Source: Bacteroidota bacterium (GTDB lineage Bacteria > Bacteroidota > Bacteroidia > Flavobacteriales_E > Vicingaceae). From it: a stretch of DNA of 64,000 bases. Position 1 is the stretch's first letter. Every line of letters starts with the position of its first letter. Made by a program: the position numbers and the translations under genes. The stretch lies in NCBI GenBank assembly GCA_013112545.1, contig JABFGJ010000007.1:1-64000 (forward strand), in the 5' to 3' direction. This document shows, piece after piece, positions 43,253 to 53,806 of the stretch. Below the pieces are notes generated by a model. That model saw nothing but the letters and a program-made list of their open reading frames with translations, made no database searches and was not told the origin of the DNA.

Positions 43253-43759
43253 ATGCTTCCAAATTTAACTAAGATAAAAGGAGTACATCCAGGTGCTATT
43301 TTAAGAAGGGAAATAAAAAAACAAGGACTAAAATCATCTCAACTAGCTGAAAGGATAGATGAACATAAGCAAACGATAAGCGCTATTCTTAATAAAAGAA
43401 GAGCAATAAACCCTAAGCTTTCCATAAAATTAGCCAAGCAATTTAATGTAGATGAAGATTACTTTATGATGCTTCAAGCCAGTTTTGACGTAAAAAAAGC
43501 AGCTGAACTTGAAATTAAAAAAACTCCGAATATCAATAACTTTAGAAAAGCGATTTTTTGGGATACAACCATAGATAAAATCGATTGGAATAAGAATAAA
43601 AGAGCAGTTATTAAAAGAATTTTAGAACGAGGAAATGAAAATGAAATAAATGAAATAATTTCTTTTTATGGTAAAACAACGATTGCAAAAGAAGTAAAAA
43701 TGATTCGCAATAGCATTCTACCTTCACTTGAAAAAAACATACTAGACTATAACTTATAA
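43253..43759 (+). CDS. HigA-like antitoxin fused to an AbiEii-associated C-terminal domain
   Basis: 168 aa. Residues 8-75 are a HigA/XRE helix-turn-helix: GVHPGAILRREIKKQGLKSS, then SQLAERI...TISAILNKRRAI. After a linker, residues about 98-150 read FRKAIFWDTTIDKIDWNKNK and VIKRILERG. This matches the short LFWDxDxxKIDWxKN...VIERVLERG domain (DUF6922-like) often found as a separate small protein beside AbiEii toxins. So DNA-binding and toxin-partner modules seem joined in one chain. It is encoded 10 bp before the nucleotidyltransferase gene; probably the antitoxin and repressor of the pair. Confidence 0.78.
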   Translation: MLPNLTKIKGVHPGAILRREIKKQGLKSSQLAERIDEHKQTISAILNKRRAINPKLSIKLAKQFNVDEDYFMMLQASFDVKKAAELEIKKTPNINNFRKAIFWDTTIDKIDWNKNKRAVIKRILERGNENEINEIISFYGKTTIAKEVKMIRNSILPSLEKNILDYNL

Positions 43760-43769
43760 TAAAACAAAA

Positions 43770-44411
43770 ATGAGATTATACCTAGACACTGTTTCGGATT
43801 TACTTTTGGAAATCCTTAAAAAACTAATGACTATTGAAGCCTTTAATTCTTTTAGAATTGTTGGAGGTACTTCATTGAGTTTGCAGTTAGGTCATAGGGA
43901 ATCAGTTGATATCGATTTATTTACAGACTTGGAATATGGGAGTCTTGATTTTGAAGAACTAGAAAAGATTTTAATTGATACATTTCCTATTGTAGAATCT
44001 AATTATTTCGGTCCTGTAGGCTTTGGCAAACCATTTTTTATCGGCAATAGTAAAAATGATTTAATTAAACTAGACTTGTATTATACAGATCAATTCGTTT
44101 TTCCTTGTCTTGTAAAACAGAATATTCGTTTTTCAAGTATTGAAGAAGTTGCTGCAATGAAATTTGAAGTAATAACCCGAGGTGGGAGGAAGAAAGATTT
44201 TTGGGATGTTCATGAATTATTAGAAACTTATTCACTTGATGAGTTGATTAGTTTCTACTTAAAAAGGAATCCTTATGGAAGTTCTAAAGAAGAAGTTTTA
44301 AAGCAAATGGTTGATTTTTCTGTTGCAGAACACGATTTTACACCAAACTGTTTAAAAAACAAAGATTGGGAAATTATCAAGTTAGATATTGTAGAATTAG
44401 TTAAGGGTTGA
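43770..44411 (+). CDS. AbiEii/AbiGii-family nucleotidyltransferase toxin
   Basis: 213 aa. Nucleotidyltransferase (DUF1814-type) core: RIVGGTSLSLQLGHRESVDIDLF carries the GG-x-S helix-turn and the DxD metal pair, and LIKLDLYY supplies the third acidic residue. A later AAMKFEVITRGGRKKDFWDVHELL contains the K and KDFWD of the AbiEii family. AbiE toxins act by nucleotide transfer (tRNA for MenT relatives) and give phage abortive infection in Lactococcus. Partner is the HigA-like protein upstream, not an AbiEi. Confidence 0.85.
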   Translation: MRLYLDTVSDLLLEILKKLMTIEAFNSFRIVGGTSLSLQLGHRESVDIDLFTDLEYGSLDFEELEKILIDTFPIVESNYFGPVGFGKPFFIGNSKNDLIKLDLYYTDQFVFPCLVKQNIRFSSIEEVAAMKFEVITRGGRKKDFWDVHELLETYSLDELISFYLKRNPYGSSKEEVLKQMVDFSVAEHDFTPNCLKNKDWEIIKLDIVELVKG

Positions 44412-46257: not shown

Positions 46258-48786
46258 ATGAAAAATGAAGCTCATGCAAGAATTAAAATAAACCAACTGC
46301 TCGAAGAAGCGGGATGGAGATTCTTTGACAATGAGGAAGGAAAAGCAAACATTCTGCTTGAAAACCATGTGAAGATTTCCCAAAAGGAAATTGACGCTTG
46401 GGGAAACGACTATGAAAAGACAAAAAATGGTTCGCTTGACTTTCTGTTGGTTGATAGCAACAATAAACCGATTTGTGTTTTAGAAGCTAAAAAGGAAAGC
46501 CTTCATCCTCTTGTAGCCAAGGAACAAGCAAGAAAATACGCTAAGACAGTTGGTGCTCAATACGTGATTTTATCGAATGGAATCGTCCATTATTTTTGGG
46601 ATGTAACCAAAGGAAATCCGAAACCGATATACAAGTTTCCTTCACCAAACGAAATCGGTGCAATTAAAGCATGGAATCCTGACCGAAATGCTTTGGCAAG
46701 CGAAAAAGTAGCGATTGACTATATCGCTTCTATCCAAATGCCTGACTATGCAGAGCGACCTGAATGGCAAGGAAGCATTGAAGCAAGCAAAGATTTTATT
46801 TGGACAAACGGACTTAGATTTCTACGCCATTATCAATTAAGTGCCATTGAACATTTACAGAAAGCAGTTGCCTTTGGCAAAGACCGCTTTTTGTTTGAAA
46901 TGGCAACAGGAACGGGAAAAACCTTGACTGCTGCTGCTGTTATTCGATTATTCCTAAGAACTCAAAACGCAAGACGAGTTTTGTTTTTAGTTGACCGTTT
47001 GGAATTGGAAGACCAAGCTTGGAAAGCATTCACACAATATCTCAAACCTGATTACAGCACTTTTATTTACAAAGAACACCGAAGTGATTGGCACAAAGCA
47101 GATATAGTGGTCACTACCATTCAATCGCTGATGTTCAATGACAAATACCGCTACGATTTTTCGCCAACGGATTTTGACTTGATTATTTCGGACGAGAGCC
47201 ATCGCTCTATTTCAGGAAACGCAAGAGCCGTTTTTGAATATTTCCATGGCTACAAATTAGGCTTAACAGCCACACCAAGAGATTACTTAAAAGGCGTTGA
47301 CCCTGAAAAGGTAAAAGAAAACGACCCAAGAGAAATTGAACGAAGAATGTTGCGGGATACCTACTCAACCTTCGGTTGTGAAGGTGGCGACCCAACTTTT
47401 CGATATTCGCTTTTGGATGGAGTGAAAGACGGTTATCTCATCAATCCAAAAGTTTTAGATGCCCGAACTGAAATTACCACGCAACTGCTTTCTGATGAAG
47501 GATATGCAGTTGTTGTACCAACAGAAGAAGGAGAAGAAACAGAAACCTTTGTTTCCCGTGATTTTGAAAAGAAATTCTTTTCTGAAAAGACAAACAGTGT
47601 TTTTTGCCAGACCTTTTTAGAAAACGCCTTGCGTGACCCGATTACCAATGAAATTGGCAAGACTATCATTTTTGCGGTAAGCCAGAATCATGCTCGCAAG
47701 CTAACTGAAATGCTCAATGAATTTGCAGAGCAACTTTTCCCGAACAAATACAACTCTGATTTTGCGGTTCAGGTAACTTCTCAGGTTGGAGATGCTCAAC
47801 AAATGACTATCAACTTTACCAATAACAACCTGAGCGGAAAAACTACTTGGTTAGAAGGTTACAAATCGTGTAAGACAAGAGTTTGCGTTACGGTTGGCAT
47901 GATGACCACAGGTTATGATTGCCCTGATTTATTGAACATCTGCATGATGCGACCGATTTTTAGTCCAGCGGATTTTGTGCAGATAAAAGGAAGAGGCACA
48001 AGAAAAAACACTTTTGAATACACCTTCAAAAACGAACTGAACGAAGAAGAAACACAACGACACGAAAAGGAAATATTCAAACTTTTCGACTTCTTTGCCA
48101 ACTGCGAATATTTTGAAGAGAAATTCGACTATGATGAAAAACTCAAACTTCCTAAACCAAAGAAAGGAAGCGGTGAAGGTGGTGGCGGTGGTGTTGACCT
48201 TGACAAATACACCACTTTTCAACCTGACCCTTTACTGACTTTGAATGAACAACAAATCGGGTATGAAGGGATGAAGATTGACCGCATGTTGTTCAAGAAA
48301 TTTGAAGACCGCATCAAAATGGACGACATCATCAAGAAAAATGTGGAACTCGGAAATTGGGAACATGTTATCAGCCATATTCAGCAGGAGATTTTCGATA
48401 AACCCGAAGAATATTTCAATCTTGATAAACTGAGAAAGGCTGCCAAGATTGACCGCAAAGTTTCTATCCGTGAAGTGGTGGAGAAGGTTTTTGGTATCAT
48501 TCCAAAATTTAAATCAAAGGATGAATTGCTTGAAGAAGAATTCGACAAATTCATTTCCATTTATCCACCCGAAGAAGATGTGAATTTGAGAGCATTAAAA
48601 TACTTTTTCAAAGCCTACATTGTTGACCAAGACATTCGGAAAATCATTTCTTCTAAAGATTTCCATGCCTTGCAAACACACCCAACGCTTACCATTTCAC
48701 AATTCAAAGAAGTGGCAGCAAAATACCGTGAAGTAATTCCGGTTTACATTAAAGATTACGTGAACCTCGAAAGATTTGCCGCCTGA
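46258..48786 (+). CDS. hsdR: Type I restriction enzyme R subunit (EcoEI-like)
   Basis: 842 aa. N-terminal nuclease domain with D61 and E76-A-K78 (LDFLLVD...VLEAKKE), a PD-(D/E)xK core. SF2 translocase follows: Walker A ATGTGKT at 216-222, DESH box at 312-315, LTATP motif III near 337, and motif VI QIKGRGTRKN near 577. A Gly-rich linker (GSGEGGGGG near 637) precedes an EcoEI_R_C-type C-terminal domain. The length fits the EcoEI/type IB-like short HsdR. It cuts DNA after translocation with HsdM and HsdS. The stop overlaps the transposase ATG by one base (TGATG). Confidence 0.93.
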   Translation: MKNEAHARIKINQLLEEAGWRFFDNEEGKANILLENHVKISQKEIDAWGNDYEKTKNGSLDFLLVDSNNKPICVLEAKKESLHPLVAKEQARKYAKTVGAQYVILSNGIVHYFWDVTKGNPKPIYKFPSPNEIGAIKAWNPDRNALASEKVAIDYIASIQMPDYAERPEWQGSIEASKDFIWTNGLRFLRHYQLSAIEHLQKAVAFGKDRFLFEMATGTGKTLTAAAVIRLFLRTQNARRVLFLVDRLELEDQAWKAFTQYLKPDYSTFIYKEHRSDWHKADIVVTTIQSLMFNDKYRYDFSPTDFDLIISDESHRSISGNARAVFEYFHGYKLGLTATPRDYLKGVDPEKVKENDPREIERRMLRDTYSTFGCEGGDPTFRYSLLDGVKDGYLINPKVLDARTEITTQLLSDEGYAVVVPTEEGEETETFVSRDFEKKFFSEKTNSVFCQTFLENALRDPITNEIGKTIIFAVSQNHARKLTEMLNEFAEQLFPNKYNSDFAVQVTSQVGDAQQMTINFTNNNLSGKTTWLEGYKSCKTRVCVTVGMMTTGYDCPDLLNICMMRPIFSPADFVQIKGRGTRKNTFEYTFKNELNEEETQRHEKEIFKLFDFFANCEYFEEKFDYDEKLKLPKPKKGSGEGGGGGVDLDKYTTFQPDPLLTLNEQQIGYEGMKIDRMLFKKFEDRIKMDDIIKKNVELGNWEHVISHIQQEIFDKPEEYFNLDKLRKAAKIDRKVSIREVVEKVFGIIPKFKSKDELLEEEFDKFISIYPPEEDVNLRALKYFFKAYIVDQDIRKIISSKDFHALQTHPTLTISQFKEVAAKYREVIPVYIKDYVNLERFAA

Positions 48787-49376
48787 TGTCTGATAGGTTT
48801 CAAAATAAATACCGCATAGAATCAACCCGATTGAAAAATTGGGATTATGGATCGAATGCATCCTATTTTGTGACCATTTGCACCCAAAATCGCGAATGTT
48901 TTTTTGGTGATGTGGTGGGTGATAAAGACGCATTGCCATGTTTCTCTTTAACACCAATTGGGGTAATTGTGGAAACGGAATGGTTGAAAACATTCGAAAT
49001 GCGACCTGATATGAATTTGGAAATGGGTGAATTTGTGGTTATGCCAAATCATTTTCATGCAATAATTGGAATTGGGGAAAATGAATACAATACGAAACGG
49101 GATACGCATTTGGATACGCAACGTAGAGGCGCAATGCATTGCGCCTCTACCAACGATAATCCAAAAAACAAATTCGGACCCCAATCCAAAAATTTGGCAT
49201 CCATTATTAGGGGTTTTAAAATTGGGGTAACAAAAAATGCCCGATTGATAAATCCCGATTTCGCATGGCAACCACGATACCACGACCATGTTATCCGAAA
49301 TGATAAATCATTTCATAGAATTTCAGAATACATTATTAATAATCCCCGTAATTGGACAACAGACAAATTACGGTAA
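48786..49376 (+). CDS. REP-associated tyrosine transposase (RAYT, Y1 HUH family)
   Basis: 196 aa. Y1_Tnp/HUH fold: strand YFVTICTQNRECFFG, then the HUH metal motif in VVMPNHFHAIIGIG near residue 91, and a C-terminal helix with the expected catalytic Tyr in SEYIINNPRNW near residue 182. RAYTs are single-copy domesticated relatives of IS200/IS605 enzymes that mobilise REP palindromes. Residues about 114-122 (RRGAMHCAS) are encoded by a perfect 28-bp palindrome inside the gene, and a second REP-like palindrome follows the stop. Placed between hsdR and hsdMS and overlapping the hsdR stop, so translationally coupled. The frame is intact. Confidence 0.9.
   Translation: MSDRFQNKYRIESTRLKNWDYGSNASYFVTICTQNRECFFGDVVGDKDALPCFSLTPIGVIVETEWLKTFEMRPDMNLEMGEFVVMPNHFHAIIGIGENEYNTKRDTHLDTQRRGAMHCASTNDNPKNKFGPQSKNLASIIRGFKIGVTKNARLINPDFAWQPRYHDHVIRNDKSFHRISEYIINNPRNWTTDKLR
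49123..49150. repeat. Perfect 28-bp REP-like palindrome inside the transposase gene
   Basis: Arms GTAGAGGCGCAATG and CATTGCGCCTCTAC are exact complements with no loop. The core GCAATGCATTGC is like the REP elements often found with RAYT genes. It stays in frame. Confidence 0.9.
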
Positions 49377-49391
49377 AGACGCTGTAAAGAC

Positions 49392-49408
49392 GAAACGCAT
49401 TGCGTTTC
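49392..49408. repeat. Second REP-like palindrome before hsdMS
   Basis: GAAACGCATTGCGTTTC is a perfect 17-nt palindrome sharing the GCATTGC core of 49123-49150. Just before it AAAGACG is repeated. It sits in the 53-bp gap between the transposase stop and the hsdMS ATG. Confidence 0.75.
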
Positions 49409-49429: not shown

Positions 49430-52033
49430 ATGTTAGATACACAAACAAAGAAAAGAATAGATGACTGCCGAGATATTTTGGTAGGTAAACTACCTGACCC
49501 AAAGGCACAGATAGAGCAAATTACCATTGGTTTGATTTACAAGTTCATGGACGACATGGACAAAGAAGCCATTGAATTGGGCGGTTCGGCAAAGTTCTTT
49601 TCGGGTGGTTATGAAAAATACGCTTGGGACAAACTATTTGATACCAAAGTAACGGCTGCCGAAATGCTTCGTTTGTATTCCGAAGCCATTGAAAGCATGG
49701 AGAAAAACCCGAACATTCCGCAACTGTTTCGGGATATTTTCAATAATGCCTATTTGCCCTATCGTGATCCTGAAACGCTGAAACTGTTTTTGAAAACCAT
49801 TGGCGAATTTGAATACACCCACAGCGAAAAATTGGGTGATGCTTTTGAATACCTGCTTTCGGTGATGGGTTCGCAAGGAGATGCGGGACAGTTTAGAACA
49901 CCCAGACACGTTATTGACTTTTTGGTGGCGATTATTGACCCTGACAAAGGTGAAACCATTCTCGACCCTGCTTGCGGAACTGCGGGATTTTTGATTTCGG
50001 TTTACAAGCATATTCTGCTCAAGCATACCAAAGCCAACAAAGAAGGTTTGAATATTTACGAGTATAACAAACTCGAAAAAAAGCCTTTCAACAATTTAGG
50101 CGACCAACTCACCCCTGACGACCGCAAAAAGCTGATTCAGAATTTTGCAGGGTACGACATTTCGCCCGACATGGTTCGACTGAGCTTGGTGAATTTATAC
50201 CTGCATGGGTTCTCTGACCCACACATTAACGAATACGATACGCTAAGTAGCGAAGAACGTTGGAATGAAAACTTTGATGTGGTGTTGGCCAACCCACCAT
50301 TTATGAGTCCGAAAGGCGGCATACGGCCACACAAGAAATTTACCATTAACAGCAACCGCTCGGAAGTGCTGTTTGTGGACTACATAGCCGAACACTTAAA
50401 CCCCAAAGGCAAAGCAGGCATCATTGTGCCCGAAGGTGTGATTTTCCAAAGCGGAAAAGCTTACAAAGAACTGCGCAAAATGTTGGTGGACAATTATCTC
50501 TATGCCGTGGTGAGTTTGCCCGCAGGTGTGTTTAACCCATATAGTGGTGTAAAAACATCCATTTTATTGATGGACAAAGCTATTGCCAAGAAACACAAGG
50601 AAATCCTGTTTGTAAAAATTGCCAATGACGGCTACAATTTGGGGGCACAGCGAACAGCCGTAAAAGGCAGCCAATTGGAAGAGGCGATTGCGCTAACCCA
50701 TGAATTTGCAGCGACAGGAGAAATACCTGATTCATTGATTGCTCATACAGTTTTAAGAACTGAGATATCAGCAAGTGTCGATTACAATTTGAGTGGGGAT
50801 AGATATAAAATAACAATAGACAAGGAAAGCACTTTTGAGTGGAAAGAAATTGGAGAACTTGTTGACTTAATTAAAGACGGAGATTGGATTGAAAGTAAAG
50901 ACCAATCGGAATCGGGAATTAGATTAATTCAAACGGGAAACGTTGGTATTGGCGAGTATAAGGATAAAGATGATAAAGCCAGATTTATAGATGAAGATAC
51001 TTTCAAAAGGTTGAATTGCACAGAAATTTTTCCTAATGATGTTCTTGTTTCGAGATTGCCAGACCCTGTTGGCAGAGCCTGTCTTGTTCCAAACCTAAAT
51101 ATAAAAATGATTACCGCTGTTGATTGCTCAATTATTAGATTCAATCAAAAGAAAATACTTCCAAATCTATTTGTGTATTACACAAAGTCAGACAAGTATT
51201 ATGACTATATAGCGCCATATTTGACAGGCTCAAGTAGAAGCAGAATTAGTCGTAAGAACCTTGAAAAGGTAAAAATCCCCCTTCCCCCCTTATCCATTCA
51301 GGAAGAAATTGTAGCCGAAATAGAAGGCTACCAAAAAATAATAAATGGAGCCAAAGCGGTAGTGACCAACTACAAACCCAAAATAGACATTGACCCGGAT
51401 TGGGAGATGGTGGAGTTAAACTCAATTTGTGATGTTCGAGACGGAACACACGATTCACCAAAGTATGTTCAAGAGGGTGGCATTCCATTTATAACCCAGA
51501 AGAATATTACAAAAGAAGGCCTGTCTTTCGATAATGTGAATTATATCTCACAAGAAGACCATGAAAAAATCATCAAGCGTTCTAATGTTGAGTTTGGTGA
51601 CATCATTTTTTCAATGATAGGAGCCAACAGAGGTATGAGCTGCTTAATAGACGATAAAAGAGTTTTTAGCATCAAAAACGTTGGACTAATTAAACCACAA
51701 GGGAAAGCAGAACAAAAATTCATTCTTTATTATCTCCAATCTCAAAATGCTCAAACTTATGTAGCAAATGTTTCAGCAGGCGGAGCACAGTCTTTTGTAA
51801 GTCTTAAAAATCTTAGAGCCTTTCCAATACCGCTTCCAGATGCCGAAACTCAACTTCAAATCGTAGCACAAATTGAAAAAGAGCAGGCATTGGTCAATGC
51901 CAACAAGCAGCTTATTGAAATTTTTGAGCAGAAGATTAAGGATAGGATTGCAAAGGTTTGGGGCGTGGAAAAAGAGGAAGAAGAAAATTTAAGTATGGCT
52001 GCTGAGCCTTTGGTAGAATATGAAAAGGCTTAA
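49430..52033 (+). CDS. Fused type I methyltransferase-specificity protein (HsdM-HsdS)
   Basis: 867 aa from ATG 49430 (the TTG at 49400 lies in the REP-like palindrome). Residues 1-445 are an N6-adenine methylase: HsdM_N helical bundle, motif I DPACGTAGFL at 179-188, motif IV NPPF at 288-291. From about 468 it is an HsdS: first target-recognition domain (468-610), conserved spacer starting IPLPPLSIQEEIVAEIEGYQ (about 612-655), second target domain (658-797) and a C-terminal coiled spacer (IPLPDAETQLQIVAQIEKEQ). Thus one chain carries modification and a full bipartite specificity unit. Separate hsdM and hsdS are the norm in type I; fusion is more usual in type IIG/IIB. A marked rise in G+C is visible over 49430-50700. 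Confidence 0.88.
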   Translation: MLDTQTKKRIDDCRDILVGKLPDPKAQIEQITIGLIYKFMDDMDKEAIELGGSAKFFSGGYEKYAWDKLFDTKVTAAEMLRLYSEAIESMEKNPNIPQLFRDIFNNAYLPYRDPETLKLFLKTIGEFEYTHSEKLGDAFEYLLSVMGSQGDAGQFRTPRHVIDFLVAIIDPDKGETILDPACGTAGFLISVYKHILLKHTKANKEGLNIYEYNKLEKKPFNNLGDQLTPDDRKKLIQNFAGYDISPDMVRLSLVNLYLHGFSDPHINEYDTLSSEERWNENFDVVLANPPFMSPKGGIRPHKKFTINSNRSEVLFVDYIAEHLNPKGKAGIIVPEGVIFQSGKAYKELRKMLVDNYLYAVVSLPAGVFNPYSGVKTSILLMDKAIAKKHKEILFVKIANDGYNLGAQRTAVKGSQLEEAIALTHEFAATGEIPDSLIAHTVLRTEISASVDYNLSGDRYKITIDKESTFEWKEIGELVDLIKDGDWIESKDQSESGIRLIQTGNVGIGEYKDKDDKARFIDEDTFKRLNCTEIFPNDVLVSRLPDPVGRACLVPNLNIKMITAVDCSIIRFNQKKILPNLFVYYTKSDKYYDYIAPYLTGSSRSRISRKNLEKVKIPLPPLSIQEEIVAEIEGYQKIINGAKAVVTNYKPKIDIDPDWEMVELNSICDVRDGTHDSPKYVQEGGIPFITQKNITKEGLSFDNVNYISQEDHEKIIKRSNVEFGDIIFSMIGANRGMSCLIDDKRVFSIKNVGLIKPQGKAEQKFILYYLQSQNAQTYVANVSAGGAQSFVSLKNLRAFPIPLPDAETQLQIVAQIEKEQALVNANKQLIEIFEQKIKDRIAKVWGVEKEEEENLSMAAEPLVEYEKA

Positions 52034-52045
52034 AGCTGCAATTGA

Positions 52046-53806
52046 ATGAATATTAACCAAATAGAAATAACGAATGTAAAAGGTATGGGCAGTAAGTCTT
52101 TCAATCTCGATTTGCATCCCAACAAACCGAATATTCTTGTAGCACCTAATGGTTTTGGTAAAAGTTCCTTTGCCCTTGCTTTTGACCGCCTAAAAAGGGA
52201 TAAAATTGAGTTGGGTGACAAAGAGTACTACAACAAAATAACCACTAACAGACCTCAATTAAAAATCATACTTTCCAATGGCACAGAGTTAATCGCTGAC
52301 GATAATCAAAACACAATCAATGATATGTTCGATGTGGTTGTTATTAAAAACCAGACAGAACCAAAATCTGTTATTCAAACAATTCCAGGTCGTCCGCCTT
52401 TTACAAGAACAACTTTAGACATTGTCCGTACGACCTTGATTCAAACAATCCCACCAAAGGTCGATTTTGCTTACCACTCAGCAACTCTAAAGGCTAATTT
52501 TGGAACGAATGGAAATAAAATACTTACCAATATTTCCAGCTTATTCAATTCAGGTAAATTCATCAATACTGTTGAAAACAAAATTGATTTTTCAAGATTT
52601 GATCTTAAGGCTTTTAAAAGGCTAATAGAAACAGTTATTGAGCAAATTAATAATCGAGAAGGAACAGGGTATCAGATAAAAACATGGATTGAAGATGATC
52701 TGCTTGATGAGCTTAAAGTACATGAAGAATTTTCAAAATTTGCTTCGATAATTCAATCCTTCGGCTTTGAAGTTTTGAATGACGAAGTGGATTATTACTT
52801 AACCGCATGGCAGTTAATCACAGTTAGAAATGAAATGGGTGCTGACTTTAAAAAAGCTTGTAAATACCTTTACTTCTTAGATAAAAAGCAGCATTACACC
52901 GAGACAATAGCCAACTACAATCCTGTAAAGGAAAGATTCGATATTAAACCGAAGGCTGAAGGAAACAGCCTTGTGGTTAATTGGCCAAAGGCGCATGAAA
53001 TTTCAAATGGGCAAAGAGATATTTTGACCTTCATGGCTCTGCTTTTAAAGACCAAAAATAGCTTTAAAAAGAAAGATTGTATCCTTGTTATTGACGAAAT
53101 ATTCGACTACATGGATGATGCTAACCTGATAACTTTTCAATACTACATCTCAACCTTTATTGAAGAGATGAAAGGTCAGAAAAGGAGAATTTTTCCAATT
53201 CTACTCACACATTTAGACCCTTTGTTTTTTAATCATTTCTGCTTCAACGACAATAAAATTAAAGTTTGCTACATAAAGGACATCAAGGTAAAGTCCAATC
53301 AAAATATTCTGAATATTATTTACAACCGTGAAGATGAAACCATCAAAGACACTGTAGATGCACATTATTTTCACTTTCATCCAAACTCAGGAGAGATTGA
53401 TATAACAGAAGAATTCAAAGCTCTGAAACTGAACCCAGATTGGGGAACGCCTGAAAAATTCTTCAAAAAGATATTTAGAGAAGTGAGACGATATTTATTT
53501 GATGATGAAACATTCGACCCGCTTGCTATTTGTTTTGGAGTTAGAAATCGAATTGAACAATTGGTTTATGACAAAATTCCTGATGATGAAAACAAAAGGA
53601 AGTTTATAGAAGAAAATAACGGTACGAAAAACAAACTTCATTTTGCACAAAACATAGGAGTTCAGATACCTGATACTTATTTCTTATTGGGAATTATTTA
53701 CAATACTTCTTTGCATTTGTCACAGGGACAAGATATTTCAAAACCCCTTGGACTGAAATTAGAGAATGGAACTATTAAACAAATGATAATGAACTTGTGG
53801 AACTAA
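52046..53806 (+). CDS. AAA/ABC-type ATPase associated with the restriction locus
   Basis: 586 aa, no membrane segment. N-terminal KGMGSKSFNLDLHPNKPNILVAP leads into Walker A PNGFGKSS (34-41). An ABC-like signature ISNGQRDIL is at 319-327 and Walker B ILVIDEIFDYMDD follows with D350-E351, the head layout of SMC/RecF-type ATPases. The insert between Walker A and the signature is helical but too short and irregular for a long coiled coil or zinc hook. The C-terminal 200 residues match nothing I recognise. It starts 12 bp after hsdMS and ends the island, so it is in the same operon. A defence accessory or effector role is inferred only from position. Confidence 0.75.
   Translation: MNINQIEITNVKGMGSKSFNLDLHPNKPNILVAPNGFGKSSFALAFDRLKRDKIELGDKEYYNKITTNRPQLKIILSNGTELIADDNQNTINDMFDVVVIKNQTEPKSVIQTIPGRPPFTRTTLDIVRTTLIQTIPPKVDFAYHSATLKANFGTNGNKILTNISSLFNSGKFINTVENKIDFSRFDLKAFKRLIETVIEQINNREGTGYQIKTWIEDDLLDELKVHEEFSKFASIIQSFGFEVLNDEVDYYLTAWQLITVRNEMGADFKKACKYLYFLDKKQHYTETIANYNPVKERFDIKPKAEGNSLVVNWPKAHEISNGQRDILTFMALLLKTKNSFKKKDCILVIDEIFDYMDDANLITFQYYISTFIEEMKGQKRRIFPILLTHLDPLFFNHFCFNDNKIKVCYIKDIKVKSNQNILNIIYNREDETIKDTVDAHYFHFHPNSGEIDITEEFKALKLNPDWGTPEKFFKKIFREVRRYLFDDETFDPLAICFGVRNRIEQLVYDKIPDDENKRKFIEENNGTKNKLHFAQNIGVQIPDTYFLLGIIYNTSLHLSQGQDISKPLGLKLENGTIKQMIMNLWN

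Follow-up and report, generated by a model that had tools for sequence, protein, structure and literature searches.

A RAYT gene lies between hsdR and a fused hsdMS gene in the 64,000-nt stretch of Bacteroidota DNA analyzed here (the window), with its start codon overlapping the hsdR stop codon by one base. The question raised by this locus is whether such a gene was inserted at the stop codon by choice of target, is kept for a function within the operon, or is carried there as a passenger. The benefit of RAYTs to their hosts is unsettled, and discussion of these proteins centers mostly on their partnership with REP/REPIN repeats. A single-copy RAYT that lacks a REP population, is under purifying selection, and occurs repeatedly in type I operons presents a direct test case for a host role of RAYTs.

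The window RAYT and its operon

The features of the locus are collected in Table 1; W denotes the window and L followed by a number denotes a locus in a relative. By gene content, the operon encodes a type I restriction-modification system, as HsdR, HsdM, and HsdS domains are all detected by Pfam within it. The HsdR motor, N6 methylase, and specificity domains in a single operon are shared with type I operons that have an EcoAI-like HsdR and a fused HsdMS, whereas the window has, in addition, a fourth gene that is coupled and placed between R and MS, as well as the ATPase gene downstream. The initial annotation had described a one-base TGATG overlap, a distance of 53 bp from the RAYT stop to the hsdMS start, and an intact RAYT frame with HUH and Tyr motifs, all of which are borne out by the coordinates. 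An alternative in-frame hsdMS start, TTG at 49400, was chosen by the ORF caller, but relatives use the ATG (MLDTQTK). The hairpin in the 53-nt spacer, the ATPase gene, and a perfect palindrome within the RAYT gene had all been missed.

Table 1. Features of the hsdR-RAYT-hsdMS locus (positions in the 64,000-nt window)
Feature	Position	Strand	Evidence or remark
hsdR, type I restriction subunit (HSDR_N, ResIII/SWI2 motor)	46258..48786	+	Pfam; NCBIfam EcoAI/FtnUII R subunit, below cut-off
hsdR 3' tail, last ~55-58 nt, apparently co-imported with the RAYT; breakpoint about 48726-48729	48726..48783	+	Change-point test against L033 and L069
TGATG, one base common to hsdR stop and RAYT start	48784..48788	+	hsdR TGA 48784-48786, RAYT ATG 48786-48788; same TRATG in 8 relatives
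RAYT / TnpAREP subclass 2.4 gene (assigned), 196 aa	48786..49376	+	NF047646 57 bits, TnpArep 4ER8 profile match, motifs; stop codon 49374-49376
HUH motif H89-F90-H91	49050..49058	+	Sequence motifs
Double-foot REP palindrome GTAGAGGCGCAATGCATTGCGCCTCTAC, in frame within the RAYT gene	49123..49150	+	Sole genome copy
Catalytic Tyr182 codon (YIINNP)	49329..49331	+	Sequence motifs
Imperfect REP-like hairpin GAAACGCATTGCGTTTC, RAYT-hsdMS spacer	49392..49408	+	
hsdMS fusion (N6_Mtase and two Methylase_S stretches)	49430..52033	+	Pfam; ATG start
SMC/RecF-like ATPase gene, immediately 3' of hsdMS	52046..53806	+	Pfam PF02463, below gathering cut-off; counterpart in L033, 89%

Besides the HUH motif and Tyr182, the window RAYT contains the WQ pair (W161-Q162), and the HUH, WQ, and Tyr residues are invariant across 12 relatives; the HUH nuclease is predicted to be intact and is probably active. 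The motifs NHFH, WQ, and YIINNP fit those of TnpAREP subclass 2.4 (NH[IFV]H, WQ, and YIxNNP), which corresponds to group 4 of earlier work and has as its hallmark a REP placed within the gene without breaking the frame (PMC6006769). In the window, the 28-bp palindrome (GTAG...CTAC) lies in frame between the HUH and Tyr motifs, and the double-foot form of the REP and the low copy number are likewise shared with this subclass, which Bacteroidetes commonly carry. On the basis of these sequence features, we assign the window RAYT as a TnpAREP subclass 2.4 protein with an in-frame double-foot REP. Its score against NCBIfam NF047646 (REP-associated tyrosine transposase), 57 bits, does not reach the equivalog cut-off of 80. 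It differs from the published members in its fixed position within a type I operon (the terms "restriction" and "hsd" occur 0 times in PMC6006769) and in a genome without a dispersed REP family: it is the only RAYT there, and a search allowing up to 3 mismatches or using a degenerate pattern found no REP copy other than the internal one. Its flanks contain the one imperfect hairpin downstream and none upstream. The one solved protein hit by the RAYT family profile is TnpArep (4ER8), of the Y1 HUH transposase fold family to which IS200/IS605 transposases also belong. Unlike those elements, the window RAYT is present in single copy, has no paired ends at the gene, and carries its REP inside the gene, and RAYTs appear to be co-inherited with host genes in L033 and L069. 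In L077 (8888-9994), and similarly in L038, the RAYT gene has grown to 368 aa through twelve in-frame REP palindromes.

Upstream of the restriction operon, at 43253-44411, an HTH/DUF6922 gene is followed by an AbiEii-like nucleotidyltransferase gene, probably forming an AbiE-type toxin-antitoxin pair. More HsdM- and HsdS-like matches, without a RAYT, are found elsewhere in the same genome (G000:C6:79509-83982).

The hsdR-hsdMS slot and its turnover

A survey of 25 loci with closely related hsdR genes (77-100% identity) shows that the hsdR-hsdMS junction of this type I family is a slot, either empty or holding one of several small genes. Intact RAYTs occupy eight of these slots, seven of them independent as L038 and L077 are near-identical, and a RAYT fragment occupies one (L074). 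Eight more are empty, with hsdM starting 9-28 nt past hsdR (L042, L046, L048, L053, L055, L058, L062, and L071), and the remaining eight hold other genes: Y1 subclass-1.2-like (two, L045 and L056), GIY-YIG (three), AlbA/RecG-like (two), and one of no known family. The Y1 proteins are, like the RAYT, low-copy HUH proteins in the same slot, and their YIKNQKEHH motif fits subclass 1.2 of PMC6006769. In L047 (8997-10001), the slot gene of ~335 aa has no Pfam match, and an ORF of similar size lies at the same place in L097 and L036.

The RAYT start forms TRATG with the hsdR stop in 9/9 RAYT-bearing slots, one of them with a truncated RAYT, and in eight relatives the RAYT begins on the same hsdR stop as in the window. 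As a base rate, an ORF of at least 200 aa in these loci has a TRATG-coupled ORF of at least 100 aa after it in 15/521 cases (2.9%), a few of the 15 being RAYTs themselves. The overlap is not exclusive to RAYTs, as an AlbA-type slot gene in L054 likewise starts at TGATG. In L220 (4001-4200, reverse strand), hsdR is reduced to a short C-terminal remnant, and the TGATG overlap and the RAYT persist.

When slot occupants are placed on the hsdR and hsdM trees, they cluster no more than shuffled labels do, which indicates fast turnover. RAYTs found in the slot split into three separate groups on the RAYT phylogeny (W with L074; L051 with L077; L218/L033, L044, L069, and L110), and RAYTs of other contexts are interspersed among them. 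A single clade for the slot RAYTs is rejected by the AU test (p-AU 6e-14) and at least five changes are forced, ruling out one ancestral insertion followed by vertical descent of all of them. Synonymous divergence between L033 and L069 is similar for the RAYT (dS 0.61), hsdR (0.64), and hsdM (0.52), with a RAYT dN/dS of 0.18; as these values are equal in effect, they support inheritance of the RAYT together with hsdR and hsdM in this pair.

At hsdR and at hsdM, the window stands equally close to L033 and L069, but its RAYT belongs to another clade. In hsdR DNA compared with L033 and L069, respectively, mismatches number 16/55 and 20/58 beside the stop, against 19/335 and 21/332 farther off (permutation p<0.0005; one event, seen in two comparisons), and high identity returns at the hsdM start. 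The comparison of L033 with L069 shows no hsdR break near the stop. Indels misalign the hsdR sliding windows of L069, L051, and L058 past about 80-200 codons from the stop, and only 3' bins were used. These observations support an exchange, in the window lineage, of a cassette consisting of the last ~55 nt of hsdR, the RAYT, and the spacer, apparently by homologous recombination between restriction operons. Such a swap would produce the exact window junction without precise transposition. Type I operons have an exchangeable gene slot, one that would be swappable together with the hsdR tail.

The initial annotation had weighed insertion at the stop codon by target choice against the keeping of the RAYT for operon function. 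Under target choice, a single-stranded RAYT intermediate would insert beside the sequence made by the hsdR end and so give TRATG. The identical start nucleotide in three RAYT clades and the TRATG base rate of 2.9% speak for such a mechanism. We nevertheless consider it very unlikely: other operons place the RAYT after hsdS or hsdM and at other offsets, the nucleotides at the junction vary among slots (GCCTGA, GCATAA, and GCTTAA), the unrelated L054 gene also sits at TGATG, and there is no left-end REP. For the window copy, homologous exchange of a ready-made cassette of hsdR tail and RAYT explains the precision better. The first arrival of three RAYT clades at the identical nucleotide still needs either target choice or selection for coupling.

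Recurrence in type I operons across the class and phylum

The wider distribution was assessed in two samples: 100 RAYT loci obtained by a single search through 395 genomes belonging to the class, and the best 30 loci of a repeat search across the phylum with the RAYT of L170 as query, chosen from outside type I operons because a start from an operon-resident RAYT was to be avoided. Within 600 bp of a same-strand type I gene lie 19/100 RAYTs of the class sample (20/100 within 1.5 kb), and 12/30 of the best phylum loci are in type I operons, one of which, L345, had been counted before as L175; in both samples the ranking follows resemblance to the query, and these percentages are neither unbiased rates nor population frequencies. 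Controls scored by these models lie near type I genes in 1/90 cases when pooled (DDE transposases, 0/30; PDDEXK_3, 1/30; Y1 subclass-1.2-like proteins, 0/30), giving p values of 9e-8 for the phylum sample and 1e-5 for the class sample. These three control sets contradict a general enrichment of small mobile genes or of Y1 proteins as a whole, and the Y1 subclass 1.2 proteins differ from the RAYT in this respect. All 20 scanned neighbors are HsdR, HsdM, or HsdS by Pfam, with EcoR124, EcoEI, and HindI-like HsdR types among them. The tabulated operon RAYTs are co-directional with both neighbors in 19/19 cases, with a median of about 14 nt separating them from the upstream gene, whereas RAYTs elsewhere have a co-directional neighbor in 55/77 cases upstream and 42/76 downstream, with typical gaps above 100 nt.

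RAYTs of subclass 2.4 are thus recurrently built into type I operons whose HsdR subunits come from several families, co-oriented and nearly gapless. The literature searched, which did not extend to most subscription papers, contained no description of RAYTs within type I operons.

The arrangement is neither a unique event nor a simple random insertion. The initial annotation had held that relatives with hsdR directly coupled to hsdMS, together with RAYTs at many unrelated sites, would show simple insertion. Both the empty hsdR/hsdM junctions and the scattered RAYTs do exist; simple insertion does not follow from them in view of the enrichment, the co-orientation, and, in this slot, the constant start on the hsdR stop. 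An ordinary one-off insertion, in frame by chance and of no wider meaning, would accommodate the empty sites among close relatives and the RAYTs elsewhere in genomes. It is rejected as highly improbable by its recurrence, both in nine slots of the window operon family and in numerous further type I operons, by the orientation bias, and by the control rate.

Possible roles: passenger cassette or restriction partner

Our preferred explanation, which we place slightly on the probable side, is that the RAYT is a replaceable operon cassette, translationally coupled to judge from the overlaps, and mainly a passenger. Insertions would persist only where the balance of R to M stays undisturbed, and the same-strand, coupled junctions may arise because only insertions that spare this balance survive. 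Once inside the operon, the RAYT would be expressed along with the restriction genes, would be shielded by the cost of losing the restriction-modification system, and could spread horizontally together with the operon. A benefit of the RAYT to restriction may exist, but the data can be explained without one. The empty and differently filled slots, the truncated RAYT beside intact restriction genes in L074, and the RAYT outliving hsdR in L220 all favor a passenger. A plain passenger does not account for the enrichment of RAYT 2.4 when DDE transposases, PDDEXK_3, and Y1 subclass 1.2 proteins show none, nor for the repeated ATGA or TRATG overlaps with hsdR; the initial arrival of three clades at the same nucleotide is also left unexplained by the cassette.

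Alternatively, it is conceivable, if short of probable, that the RAYT acts as a type I restriction accessory, an HUH single-strand nuclease that is held at a fixed ratio to HsdR by coupling and either acts on DNA translocated or cut by HsdR or tunes HsdR output. The specificity of the enrichment for RAYT 2.4, in type I operons that represent several HsdR families, would be expected of such a role, as would the tight junctions: overlaps between RAYT and hsdR are frequently 1 or 4 nt, and among 16 operons in which the RAYT precedes hsdR, the RAYT stop and hsdR start overlap as ATGA in 8, and the gap is -14 to 0 nt in 13. The catalytic residues are retained and dN/dS is 0.10-0.20 among closer RAYT pairs, despite there being no other REP in the genome, and RAYT distances correlate, modestly, with those of the adjacent HsdR (r=0.36, p=0.002). 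Nearly related operons, however, lack the RAYT or have unrelated genes at the same place, L074 retains hsdR and hsdMS beside its truncated RAYT, and the L220 RAYT persists next to a dead hsdR remnant. Furthermore, most subclass 2.4 RAYTs sit outside type I operons, and their neighbors are not generally defense genes: the 139 neighbors of RAYTs outside restriction operons gave few PADLOC matches, which argues against a general association of RAYTs with defense genes. Nor do these RAYTs appear to be relics of dead operons, as an hsdR remnant was found only in L220.

We therefore lean towards a passenger over an accessory function. It seems to us rather doubtful that type I systems have, in RAYT 2.4, a fourth functional partner that recurs among them, a domesticated HUH single-strand nuclease recruited many times, translationally coupled to hsdR, and aiding or restraining the restriction complex; if true, RAYTs would have a role in the host that does not depend on REP elements.

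Some type I operons carry more elaborate arrangements. In L175 (2553-7717), tandem RAYTs lie between hsdM and hsdS, two of their ORFs being intact and the third broken, and in L226 and G113:C18:143095-144441 the operon has two extra genes in the order hsdM-RAYT-PDDEXK_3-hsdS.
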